A DNA stretch of 64,000 nucleotides from contig NZ_CP060202.1 of the NCBI RefSeq assembly GCF_014250515.1, forward strand, positions 2,105,001 through 2,169,000, given 5' to 3'. The notes under the pieces are model-generated. The model was not told the origin of the DNA. It did not search any database and saw only the letters and a list, made by a program, of their open reading frames with translations. The number at the start of each line of letters is the position of its first letter. The stretch's first letter is position 1. The translations under genes were made by a program, and so were the position numbers. The DNA comes from Hymenobacter sediminicola. GTDB taxonomy: Bacteria > Bacteroidota > Bacteroidia > Cytophagales > Hymenobacteraceae. Positions 7,151-11,004 of the stretch are shown piece by piece.

Positions 7151-7507
7151 ATGAACATCGAGGATTTCCGCGACTATTGCCTGCTAAAAGCCGGCGTGAC
7201 GGAAGAAACCCCCTTCGGCCCCGAAACGCTTGTGTTCAAAGTAGGGGGCAAAGTCTTCGCCCTCACCGACATTGATACGTTCGGTAGCATCAACCTGAAG
7301 TGTGACCCGGAGCGGGCCCAGGAGCTGCGCGAACAGCATGACTATGTGCTGCCGGGCTACCACATGAACAAGAAACATTGGAACACCGTGCTAATCGGCA
7401 CCGGCATTCCGGGCGGCCAGCTGCGTGAGCTGATAGACCATTCCTACGATTTGGTGCGAGCGTCGCTGCCAAGAAAGCTGCGCCAGGAGCTTGCCGAAGC
7501 GGAGTAG
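7151..7507 (+). CDS. MmcQ/YjbR family protein
   Basis: A 118-residue protein of the MmcQ/YjbR family (CyaY-like fold, proposed DNA-binding). Typical features are the N-terminal MNIEDFRDYCLLKAGVTEETPFGPETLVFKVGGKVFAL, the conserved INLKCDPERAQELRE, and the motif GYHMNKKHWNTVLI with the tryptophan near the end. The length fits the family. Biochemical function is not settled; DNA binding was proposed for YjbR. A strong terminator follows at 7561. Confidence 0.88.
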   Translation: MNIEDFRDYCLLKAGVTEETPFGPETLVFKVGGKVFALTDIDTFGSINLKCDPERAQELREQHDYVLPGYHMNKKHWNTVLIGTGIPGGQLRELIDHSYDLVRASLPRKLRQELAEAE

Positions 7508-7675: not shown

Positions 7676-8053
7676 ATGACGCCATTTCAAGCAATAGCCG
7701 CACTGGTGCTGGCCGGCGGCCTGTCGGGCTGCATGACCACCCGGATTGCCACCGTCTACGACTGCGACGGAGTCGTGAACGACCCGAACAGCACGCGGCT
7801 GGTGACGGCGTATTTCTGGGGGCTAAAGCAACCCACGGACATCAAGCCGCCTTGCGACTCGCGCTCCAACCACCTCAATAGCGTCACGGTAACGAATACG
7901 TTCGGGCATTTCCTGCTTTCCCTCGTGACGGTAGGCATCGTGACTAAACAGCGCGTGAGCTGGTGCTGCGCGCCCTATATGCCCGCCGTAGACACGCTAG
8001 GAATGGGGCCGGCTGCGCCATCTCAGCCCTCAAGCGCAGTTCGAAAGCCATGA
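7676..8053 (+). CDS. Bor/Iss-like lipoprotein
   Basis: A 125-residue protein with a lipoprotein signal: MTPFQAIAALVLAGGLSGC, lipobox LSGC at residue 19. The middle and end (TVTNTFGHFLLSLVTVGIVTKQRVSWCC) resemble the Bor/Iss family of small outer-membrane lipoproteins, where a short hydrophobic segment with the pattern LGxxTLGIxTPxxxxVxC sits near the C terminus. In lambda and E. coli Bor/Iss raise serum resistance; here the role is unknown. The stop codon overlaps the start of the flavin oxidase gene (ATGA), so the two are translationally coupled. The upstream leader is AT-rich (TATATATAAATTATGCTATATA). Confidence 0.65.
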   Translation: MTPFQAIAALVLAGGLSGCMTTRIATVYDCDGVVNDPNSTRLVTAYFWGLKQPTDIKPPCDSRSNHLNSVTVTNTFGHFLLSLVTVGIVTKQRVSWCCAPYMPAVDTLGMGPAAPSQPSSAVRKP

Positions 8054-9669
8054 GCCTACCCAACGGAATTGAGGCGCGTCCGATGGCGGAATGGACCAAC
8101 CGCCACGAAAACTTCACGCAGCGCCTAACGCCCTCCGCTTGCTTCAAGCTGCGCATCCCGAGCCTGCCCACCAGCCAGGAGCAGTATCGCCAGACCACAT
8201 CCAACTTTCAGTGGCTGATCCGCTACGGCATCGAGCACAACGTGCGGCTGCGGGCGTTGGGTAAAGGCTGGTCGTTTTCGGAAGTGGCCGTCACGGATGG
8301 AGGGCTGGTGGATACCATGGCCCTGCGGCAGTCGTTTGCCCTGAAACCCACAATGGTGACGCCCGCTTACCAAACGGCCGGCCGCACCGCCGACAACCTG
8401 TTTTTCACGGAGTGCGGCATGAGCATTGTGGGCTTGGAGCAGCAGCTGGAACCCCGCGGCAAGTCGATTCGGGCTTCCGGAGCCAGCAATGGGCAGAGCA
8501 TTGCGGGGGCGCTATCTACGGGTACGCACGGCGGGGCATTCCGCTTCGGGGCACTGCCCGAAACCGTAGTGGGCCTGCACCTCGTGACCGGGCCCGACCG
8601 GCACGTATGGCTGGAGCGCGCCTCGTATCCGGTGGCTTCGGCGAAGTTTACAGACTGGCTGGGTGTAACCGAAGTGCTCCATGAAGACGACCTGTTCAAT
8701 GCTGCGCTGGTCAGCTTCGGGAGTTTCGGGTTCATCCATGGGGTGCTGCTGGAAGTGGAGCCGTTGTTTCTGCTGGAAGATTTCAGCGCCTACCGTGTGC
8801 CATACCGCGAAGGAGTGAAGCAGCTCATGACCCACCTCGACTTGACCGGTCTGCAGCAGTGGCTGCCGCTGCCGCTACAGGACCCTACCCGTCAGGCCTA
8901 CCACCTCACCATCATCATCAACCCCCACCAATTCGACCCCACGGGCGCCGACCCGGAGCGCGGCGTATATGTGCAACTGCTCTTCAAAACGCCCTACCGA
9001 ACTGACTATCCGCGCCGGCCCGCGCCCGCGCCGGGCTTCACTTACGGCGACAGTACGCTGGGCCTCATTGAAACCGTGCTCGACCACCTGGGCAGCCTGA
9101 GCACGACGCTGGTCCCGGCCCTCGTAAACCGGCTGTATCCGCTGGCTTTTGAGAAAACCAACGGCACGGCGGGCACCATAAGCGAAACCTTCGACAACAC
9201 CAACATCCGGGGCAAAGCCGCCAGCGCCGCCATCGGCATCGACAACCACGACGTACCCCGCGTACTCACCGAAATTCACCTGCTCAACAAGCAACTGCCG
9301 TTTCCCGGAATTCTGGGGTTGCGCTTCGTGAAGGGCACCCGCGCCACGCTCGGCTTCACCCGCTTCCCGGTGACGGCGGTGCTGGAGTTTGATGGGGCAG
9401 AGGGCCGGGATACGCGCCGGTTTTTGGAGCAGATATGGGTCCGGCTCGAAACCCTAAACATTGCTTACACGCTGCATTGGGGCAAAATCAATTTTAACCT
9501 GACCGAGACCCGGCTCCGCCGCATGTATGGCGAAGCCGCCGTGAACAGCTGGCTCCACAGCCGCCACCACTTGCTCGATGCGCCTACGCGCCGCGTCTTT
9601 GCCAATGCTTTCATGGAGCGTTGCGGCCTCGACAAAGAGCCTGTGCCTAGTCCTAGCCCGGTAGCATAA
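8050..9669 (+). CDS. FAD-binding oxidase of the aldonolactone oxidase type
   Basis: A 539-residue VAO/PCMH-type flavoprotein. The FAD domain covers about residues 35-220, with RALGKGWSFSE and the loop GQSIAGALSTGTHGGAF, which matches the STGTHG signature of sugar-1,4-lactone oxidases. The C-terminal part (YTLHWGKIN, LRRMYG) matches the D-arabinono-1,4-lactone oxidase substrate domain, including an HWGK motif. The start is the ATG inside ATGA at the end of the lipoprotein gene. Likely reaction: oxygen-dependent oxidation of an aldonolactone or sugar alcohol, giving hydrogen peroxide; the actual substrate is unknown. No signal peptide is seen. Confidence 0.82.
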   Translation: MSLPNGIEARPMAEWTNRHENFTQRLTPSACFKLRIPSLPTSQEQYRQTTSNFQWLIRYGIEHNVRLRALGKGWSFSEVAVTDGGLVDTMALRQSFALKPTMVTPAYQTAGRTADNLFFTECGMSIVGLEQQLEPRGKSIRASGASNGQSIAGALSTGTHGGAFRFGALPETVVGLHLVTGPDRHVWLERASYPVASAKFTDWLGVTEVLHEDDLFNAALVSFGSFGFIHGVLLEVEPLFLLEDFSAYRVPYREGVKQLMTHLDLTGLQQWLPLPLQDPTRQAYHLTIIINPHQFDPTGADPERGVYVQLLFKTPYRTDYPRRPAPAPGFTYGDSTLGLIETVLDHLGSLSTTLVPALVNRLYPLAFEKTNGTAGTISETFDNTNIRGKAASAAIGIDNHDVPRVLTEIHLLNKQLPFPGILGLRFVKGTRATLGFTRFPVTAVLEFDGAEGRDTRRFLEQIWVRLETLNIAYTLHWGKINFNLTETRLRRMYGEAAVNSWLHSRHHLLDAPTRRVFANAFMERCGLDKEPVPSPSPVA

Positions 9670-9763: not shown

Positions 9764-9784
9764 TTGTAACTGCATTGGTTACAA
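9764..9784. promoter_or_regulatory. Inverted repeat, probable Rrf2 operator copy 1
   Basis: A perfect inverted repeat TTGTAAC-N7-GTTACAA upstream of the Rrf2 gene, between the TTG -33 element and the -7 box of its promoter, so a bound protein would block transcription. The same arms and spacing recur at 10297-10317. Confidence 0.75.
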
Positions 9785-9796
9785 TGCGTATCTTTG
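9764..9796 (+). promoter_or_regulatory. Rrf2 gene promoter (TTG, 22 bases, TATCTTTG)
   Basis: TTG at 9764-9766 and TATCTTTG at 9789-9796, spaced 22 bases, fit the Bacteroidota consensus TTG-N17-23-TAnnTTTG. It is the only promoter in this window where I see both elements. It overlaps the inverted repeat. Confidence 0.65.
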
Positions 9797-9838
9797 TCTT
9801 AAATACGCCCAGCCGGTTTGTGTTGGACTTTCTTACTT

Positions 9839-10279
9839 ATGCAGATCAGCAGTCGTTTTTCCGTTGCCGTACACGTGCTTTCCTTGCTGGCGCTGCCGGA
9901 GCAGGATGGTGTGCTGCTGACTTCGGAGCGTATGGCAGGCAGCGTAAACACCAATCCGGTAGTGATTCGGCGGATTCTGGGGCAGCTCAAGAAGGCCGGG
10001 CTGGTGGAAGTGCGGCCGGCTTCGGGCGGTACGTTCCTGACGCGCCAGCCGGCGGCCATCACGCTGCTGGAAGTGTACCGCGCCGTGGAAGTGGTGGAGG
10101 AAGGCCAGCTGTTCAGCGTCCACGATAAGCCCAACCCCGCCTGCCTGGTGGGCCGCCACATTCAGTCGGCGCTGGATGATACGCTGCAGCGCGCCCAAAC
10201 GGCCCTGGAGCAGGTGCTGGCCCACACCACCCTGCAGCAGGTAACCACCGACATTGCGGCCAAAGCTCTCATTGCCTGA
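9839..10279 (+). CDS. Rrf2-family transcriptional regulator
   Basis: A 146-residue winged-helix repressor: MQISSRFSVAVHVLSLLA, then the recognition region LTSERMAGSVNTNPVVIRRILGQLKKAGLVEVRPASGGTFLTR. The iron-sulfur members (IscR, NsrR) carry three cysteines in the C-terminal half; this protein has only one (NPACLVGRH), so it is not expected to hold a cluster and is closer to the YwnA/CymR type. The next gene encodes a NAD(P)-binding protein, as in the ywnA-ywnB pair of Bacillus. Identical inverted repeats lie before both genes, which suggests autoregulation plus control of the partner. Start: the ATG before QISSRFSVA, 43 bases after the -7 box. Confidence 0.9.
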   Translation: MQISSRFSVAVHVLSLLALPEQDGVLLTSERMAGSVNTNPVVIRRILGQLKKAGLVEVRPASGGTFLTRQPAAITLLEVYRAVEVVEEGQLFSVHDKPNPACLVGRHIQSALDDTLQRAQTALEQVLAHTTLQQVTTDIAAKALIA

Positions 10280-10296
10280 TATTTTTTTGCGTCTGA

Positions 10297-10317
10297 TTGT
10301 AACCGTATTGGTTACAA
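10297..10317. promoter_or_regulatory. Inverted repeat, probable Rrf2 operator copy 2
   Basis: TTGTAAC-N7-GTTACAA again, 37 bases before the start of the NAD(P)-binding gene. The arms are identical to copy 1 and the 7-base spacer differs in only two positions (cgtattg against tgcattg). Confidence 0.75.
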
Positions 10318-10353: not shown

Positions 10354-11004
10354 ATGAAAATTGCCCTCATCGGTGCCACCGGCTTTGTTGGCTCCCGCAT
10401 TCTGGCTGAAGCCCTGCAACGCGGCCATCATGTAACCGCCCTCGTGCGCGACCCCGCCAAACTCACCCAGACCTCCGACCACCTGACCGTGGTAACCGGC
10501 GACATAACCCACATCGACGAAACCGCCCGCCAGCTGGCCGGCCACGACGTGGTCATCAACGCCTTCAGCGCCGGCTGGACCAACCCCAACCTGTATAATG
10601 ACTTCCTGGAAGGCGCCCGCGCCATCGAGGCGGCTACCGTACAGTCAGGCGTAGCGCGGCTGGTGGCCATCGGCGGGGCTGGCAGCCTCTACATCAACGG
10701 CCAGCAGCTGGTCGACGGCCCGGACTTCCCCGCCGACATTAAGCCCGGTGCCCAGGCCGCCCGCGACTACCACAACGAGTTGAAAACCAACGATACCCTC
10801 GACTGGACGTTCCTCAGCCCCGCCATCGAAATGCACCCCGGCATCGACACCGGCCGCACCGGCCACTACCGCCTCGGCACCGAAAGTCCGGTCTTCAACG
10901 CCGAAGGCCGCAGCATCCTCTCAGGCGAAGACCTGGCCGTAGTAGTCCTCGACGAAGTAGAGCAGCCCAAACACAGCCGCCAGCGGTTTACGGCGGCGTA
11001 CTAG
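10354..11004 (+). CDS. NAD(P)H-binding protein, YwnB/NmrA-like
   Basis: A 216-residue atypical SDR. The N terminus MKIALIGATGFVGSRILAEAL holds GATGFVG; VTALVRDPAKL gives the residues usually contacting NADP; DWTFLSPAIEMHPG and GEDLAVVVLDEVE match the NAD(P)H-binding group of YwnB, NmrA and BLVRB-like proteins. The catalytic substrate is not known; relatives act as redox sensors or small reductases. It is 74 bases after the Rrf2 gene and has its own copy of the inverted repeat, so expression is likely derepressed together with the regulator by a thiol or electrophile signal (inference). Confidence 0.85.
   Translation: MKIALIGATGFVGSRILAEALQRGHHVTALVRDPAKLTQTSDHLTVVTGDITHIDETARQLAGHDVVINAFSAGWTNPNLYNDFLEGARAIEAATVQSGVARLVAIGGAGSLYINGQQLVDGPDFPADIKPGAQAARDYHNELKTNDTLDWTFLSPAIEMHPGIDTGRTGHYRLGTESPVFNAEGRSILSGEDLAVVVLDEVEQPKHSRQRFTAAY

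Follow-up and report, generated by a model that had tools for sequence, protein, structure and literature searches.

The window analyzed here, a 64,000-nucleotide stretch of a Hymenobacter sediminicola contig, contains what is very probably a two-gene electrophile/quinone-response cassette, in which an Rrf2-family repressor is predicted to act at two operators, one ahead of its own gene and one ahead of an adjacent ywnB-like gene (Table 1). The reading is based on the sites themselves, their conservation, the protein families of the two products, an invariant cysteine in the regulator, and the phasing of the promoter, all of which we computed. The original prediction had proposed autoregulation together with control of a redox partner, and comparative genomics supports this proposal well, with the two-site layout recurring across the genus, in other Bacteroidota, and in Bacillota.

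TABLE 1 Features of the rrf2-ywnB locus, in positions of the window
Feature	Position	Strand	Basis
Operator 1 (predicted), TTGTAACTGCATTGGTTACAA	9764..9784	.	In the rrf2 promoter; exact motif match
Probable -7 promoter box, TATCTTTG	9789..9796	+	Just after operator 1; Bacteroidota TAnnTTTG consensus
rrf2, 146 aa, predicted YwnA/SifR-type repressor (P0001)	9839..10279	+	Pfam, PDB matches, translation
Operator 2 (predicted), TTGTAACCGTATTGGTTACAA	10297..10317	.	Between rrf2 and ywnB; exact motif match
ywnB-like, 216 aa, predicted NAD(P)H-binding reductase (P0002), proposed target	10354..11004	+	Pfam, PDB matches

Both operators match the motif TTGTAAC-N7-GTTACAA with 0 mismatches, and they lie where the original prediction had placed them, one in the rrf2 promoter (9764-9784) and the other before the NAD(P)-binding gene (10297-10317). 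The spacers are TGCATTG in operator 1 and CGTATTG in operator 2, seven bases each with two differences, in agreement with the original prediction. From the end of operator 1 to the rrf2 ATG at 9839 there are 54 bases, and the 74-base gap before the ywnB ATG (10354) contains operator 2. With up to 3 mismatches, the window held 3 motif sites against 0.92 expected, a number reached in 3 of 100 shuffles. Scanning the genome to which the window belongs (4,511,071 bases; 4.51 Mb) gave two perfect sites, both at the rrf2-ywnB locus, and none for a reversed-pattern control, so that the predicted small regulon, taken in the strict sense of perfect sites, is restricted to this locus. Weaker matches in this genome are mostly noise, because at up to 2 mismatches there were 8 sites for the motif and 17 for the control. 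One of the six extra sites, at G000:C1:187909-187929 (G000 being this genome), immediately precedes another rrf2 gene. Both operators also contain the shorter core TGTAA-N9-TTACA, which was unspecific in the scan of this genome (3 places, versus 3 for the control).

We found matches to P0001 (E <= 1e-10) in 54 of 120 Hymenobacter genomes, and these matches split into 35 type-A loci (71 to 100% identity, in 33 genomes) and 36 paralogue loci (39 to 46% identity). The 120 genomes had 33 perfect motif sites, versus 2 for the reversed control. Of the 33, 31 were no more than 150 bp from a type-A orthologue of rrf2 (11 on its 5' side and 20 on its 3' side), and the spacers varied among the perfect sites at these loci. 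The other two (L199 and L200) come from G099, where P0001 has no match at this threshold, and they sit centrally in longer inverted repeats. Counting operators with up to 2 mismatches within 200 bp of rrf2, both were present at 23 of the 35 type-A loci, only the 3' operator at 10, and neither at 2; the 5' operator was thus found at 23 loci and the 3' operator at 33. Autoregulation via the 5' site would therefore not be universal, as this site is missing from 12 of the 35. The two type-A loci lacking a 3' site at up to 2 mismatches (L036 and L078) also lacked a ywnB match within the stretch retrieved, and L078 carries a 3-mismatch remnant of the 3' site. It should be noted that in the 1-mismatch scan of the genus, the counts of sites away from rrf2 are lower bounds.

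A search of genome contigs extended the comparison beyond the genus, with the best 80 of 573 confirmed matches comprising 17 Hymenobacter and 63 Bacillota loci. At up to 1 mismatch, the core occurred 31 times in 6.8 kb of rrf2 flanks at these Hymenobacter loci versus once in 68.1 kb elsewhere, and 131 times in 25.2 kb of flanks at the Bacillota loci versus 25 times in 249.1 kb elsewhere, although part of this contrast may be an artifact because the sequence elsewhere was unmatched for coding content or base composition. Among the 63 Bacillota loci (from the best 80 of 573), core sites (up to 1 mismatch, within 300 bp) were present on both sides at 44, on the 5' side only at 13, on the 3' side only at 5, and on neither at 1; all 17 with ywnB directly downstream had both. 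The downstream genes at these 63 loci, for which clusters other than YwnB were named via Pfam on one representative each, were NmrA-like NAD(P)H-binding (24), YwnB (17), glyoxalase superfamily (3), LigB type (2), DsbA-like (2), DoxX (1), and others (8), with no plus-strand gene at 6. P0001 was 52 to 63% identical to its Bacillota relatives among these best 80 of 573 matches, versus 31 to 40% to the regulators of other Bacteroidota rrf2-ywnB pairs.

Within Bacteroidota, no match to P0001 (E <= 1e-18) above 46% identity was found outside the genus in 395 genomes drawn evenly. At E <= 1e-30, 21 of 390 genomes of the order had a match, 18 from the genus, 2 from what the search tool grouped as a sister genus, and 1 from another family; this last genome (G779, L227) carries a type-A-like rrf2 of 75% identity, where the core lies on the 3' side alone and the ywnB match runs across two frames. 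At nineteen further rrf2-ywnB loci from other Bacteroidota, the proteins were more distant (31 to 39% identity for Rrf2 and 52 to 61% for YwnB), and the paired layout was present at 16 of them, with the 5' site only at 2 and the 3' site only at 1 (L171, where a 5' core lies just outside the distance limits).

The Rrf2 domain spans the whole of P0001 in Pfam (PF02082; E = 3.1e-30; 105.5 bits, cut-off 30; residues 3-137), while the NCBIfam Rrf2 superfamily model fell short of its cut-off (51.3 versus 73.3 bits). The best PDB matches were 1ylf (E = 2e-36) and 1xd7, which is YwnA (E = 1.2e-32), with 52 and 51% identity in the alignment, and the start MQISSRFS is common to P0001 and seven aligned orthologues. 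Translation bears out the claim of a single-cysteine protein: the sole cysteine is Cys102 (codon 10142-10144), within HDKPNPAC. This column is cysteine in all 157 rows from four groups of relatives (39/39 type-A rows, with one genome contributing two; 36/36 paralogues; 63/63 Bacillota among the best 80 of 573 matches; 19/19 other Bacteroidota). The exact HxxPNPxC motif, with which the SifR paper describes its monothiol class (PMC9218516), is found in 31 of the 39 type-A rows, and 35 of the 39 have one cysteine in total. Judged by its sequence, which we compared with 1ylf and YwnA and, by description, with SifR, P0001 is a YwnA/SifR-type monothiol Rrf2 protein. Two other sensor classes were ruled out for P0001: a HypR-type dithiol sensor, given the one cysteine and an NCBIfam HypR model score of 49.5 bits where the cut-off is 180, and an iron-sulfur Rrf2 protein such as IscR or NsrR, which has three cysteine ligands.

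P0002 matched the Pfam NAD_binding_10 family (E = 1.5e-29), and its best PDB matches were 3dhn, 4jgb, 3ew7 (E = 4e-33), and 4r01 (E = 6.5e-31), the last being pneumococcal YwnB (PMC9218516); human flavin/biliverdin reductase was a weaker match (E = 3.7e-11). P0002 is YwnB-like by these similarities, and quinone reduction is its predicted activity. On the 5' side of rrf2 come a gene whose product has an FAD-binding domain (PF01565; window 7963-9669) and, beyond it, a YjbR gene (window 7151-7507). At the sister-clade locus L034, a YjbR-like gene directly precedes rrf2.

Bacteroidota promoters have a -33/-7 consensus in which the -7 element is TAnnTTTG. We take TATCTTTG to be a Bacteroidota-type -7 box on the basis of this consensus; operator 1 ends four bases before it and would cover the -33 region. 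Among the 39 type-A rows (L092 and L178, with identical protein, represent a single genome), 20 of the 26 that have a 5' operator show TAnnTTTG 4 to 5 bp beyond its core. Ten rows without a 5' operator carry the box after the 3' operator, nine at 16 to 17 bases and one at 2. No TAnnTTTG box was found after operator 2 in the window.

We infer dimer binding, repression, quinone sensing, and reductase activity mainly from SifR. According to the SifR paper, SifR senses quinones, is released from DNA by an adduct on its Cys102, and represses ywnB, whose product is a quinone reductase (PMC9218516). By analogy, the reduced Rrf2 dimer in Hymenobacter would be the repressor bound to both palindromes. 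At operator 1 it would shut its own promoter, since the site ends so close to the -7 box, and at operator 2 it would stop transcription entering or starting ahead of ywnB, through a block on either read-through or a weaker promoter. The repressor probably senses quinone-like chemicals, and once the quinone had been reduced, fresh repressor would turn the rrf2-ywnB pair off.

The same repressor and sites might instead serve a signal other than quinones, for example the hypochlorite or disulfide stress known for HypR, or else a different thiol-reactive compound, which we regard as possible but unlikely. Such a signal would be in keeping with an operator at an FMN oxidoreductase gene (Pfam Oxidored_FMN) of the Old Yellow Enzyme family in 3 of 10 sister-clade orthologues, the operator being absent upstream of the other 7. 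It is also consistent with the binding of the same core operator, TGTAA-N9-TTACA, by Staphylococcus aureus HypR as well as Streptococcus pneumoniae SifR (PMC9218516), and with the induction of Bacillus subtilis ywnA and ywnB by allicin (PMC6943732). However, HypR is reported to form a Cys33-Cys99' disulfide (PMC10715087), whereas P0001 has one cysteine, and the downstream genes at the Bacillota loci (best 80 of 573) encode, among others, NAD(P)H reductases and proteins with ring-cleaving-dioxygenase folds, which fits catechol/quinone chemistry.

The genome contains a second Rrf2 paralogue (G000:C1:187485-187898; L039) of 42% identity, flanked by genes for a pirin and an HlyD-like protein, and this paralogue has near-identical operators on both sides. 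If it, or both proteins jointly, bound the two sites of the cassette, the regulon would be shared and not private. The paralogue loci do own close motif variants (a 5' site at up to 2 mismatches in 36/36; a 3' site in 26/36 at up to 3 mismatches and 14/36 at up to 2), and the reading-helix regions are similar between the paralogues. Yet many type-A sites are exact matches to the full motif on both sides while paralogue sites deviate from it, mostly in the outer bases, and perfect sites were found in none of the 21 genomes with only the paralogue, so we consider shared binding improbable. That the palindromes arose by chance, or are sites of an unrelated factor, is hardly credible and was rejected on the counts in this genome, the genus counts, and the flank density: the short core alone occurs at control frequency in this genome, but sites recur in equivalent positions throughout the genus, in other Bacteroidota, and in Bacillota while their spacers change, at a density near rrf2 about 50-fold or more above surroundings that were unmatched for coding content or base composition.

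For the quinone-response cassette, the Old Yellow Enzyme-family gene is a possible unlinked regulon member in three sister-clade genomes (G011, G018, and G049). In these genomes, a one-mismatch site lies 152 to 211 bases upstream of the FMN oxidoreductase gene (L195, L196, and L197), and one of them, G011, has no ywnB beside its rrf2 (L078). The genome of the window has a 3-mismatch site only, at an Old Yellow Enzyme homologue of 52% identity (L220). A different motif, TGTAGCAACATCA, was seen by eye upstream of Old Yellow Enzyme-family genes at L220 (G000:C1:214523-215590, minus strand) and at L207 to L209, and is perhaps another regulator's site.

To compare the ancestry of regulator and enzyme, we used trees whose rows were selected by similarity to P0001. 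In the Rrf2 tree (63 rows), type-A sequences joined Bacillota with a support of 92/87, with the bootstrap unsettled and long branches flagged, and the other Bacteroidota rows formed a separate group (100/99); the two groups were still apart in a quick tree without two odd long rows. In the YwnB tree (47 rows, with L116 and L127 left out as too short, and with B. velezensis included but not B. subtilis itself), type-A sequences were inside Bacteroidota (100/98), adjoining six loci from two families (94/92). A clade of type-A and Bacillota YwnB was rejected (P = 0.0019), as was joint inheritance with the sister cassettes, in which Rrf2 was forced to the sister group of YwnB (AU P = 0.0005), while a constraint uniting type-A with all other Bacteroidota Rrf2 was not rejected (P = 0.20). 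The first two tests indicate that the regulator and the enzyme differ in history. The cassette looks chimeric, with a Bacillota-like regulator and a Bacteroidota-nested enzyme, and transfer of the regulator from Bacillota is the simplest reading of these histories; an old duplication with losses would also account for the mismatch, less simply. We are evenly divided on a fuller scenario, in which a Bacillota-type quinone-sensing repressor displaced the resident Rrf2 before a ywnB of Bacteroidota type, the two-operator arrangement persisted, and the Old Yellow Enzyme-family enzyme later joined the regulon in one subclade. Under such a displacement, the retained layout would mean that one regulator replaced another with no change, across phyla, in the DNA code that is read.

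The cassette belongs to a known type of regulon, its regulator, operator, and enzyme all being of the SifR/YwnA-YwnB kind (PMC9218516). It shares with SifR/ywnB of S. pneumoniae the single conserved HxxPNPxC cysteine, the TGTAA-N9-TTACA operator, and a YwnB-type reductase as target (a proposed one here), but SifR is encoded apart from ywnB and controls several unlinked genes, catE, yhdA, and fre (PMC9218516), whereas in the genome of the window rrf2 adjoins ywnB and perfect sites occur only at those two genes. The genes are adjacent also in the ywnAB operon of B. subtilis (PMC9218516), whose YwnA is the 51% match given above, but the Hymenobacter YwnB groups with Bacteroidota and not with Bacillota (represented in the tree by B. 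velezensis). HypR-MerA of S. aureus likewise combines an Rrf2 repressor and the same core operator with a redox enzyme in the operon (PMC10715087, PMC9218516), but HypR works through two cysteines (Cys33 and Cys99), and its partner MerA belongs to the flavin disulfide reductases. IscR, NsrR, and RsrR are of the Rrf2 family but hold clusters by two or three cysteines and other ligands (PMC9218516), in contrast to the one cysteine of P0001. The SifR paper describes monothiol sensors from Firmicutes and a small number of Actinobacteria, and its main text has no word starting with "Bacteroid" (PMC9218516); a SifR-like protein is mentioned in Lachnospiraceae (PMC13404960). Our literature search, which covered titles and abstract openings and had most subscription journals outside it, returned no account of the cassette in Bacteroidota and nothing on Rrf2 with Hymenobacter.

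Thus, the switch appears ordinary in kind, known from Gram-positive bacteria, and is well supported here with a mosaic ancestry. It would extend the monothiol quinone-sensor switch into Bacteroidota, where the precise 14-base operator points to targets by sequence, and it may be a natural example of a regulator having been exchanged while its operator was conserved. With two Rrf2 paralogues and near-identical sites in one genome, paralogue insulation would be directly measurable.
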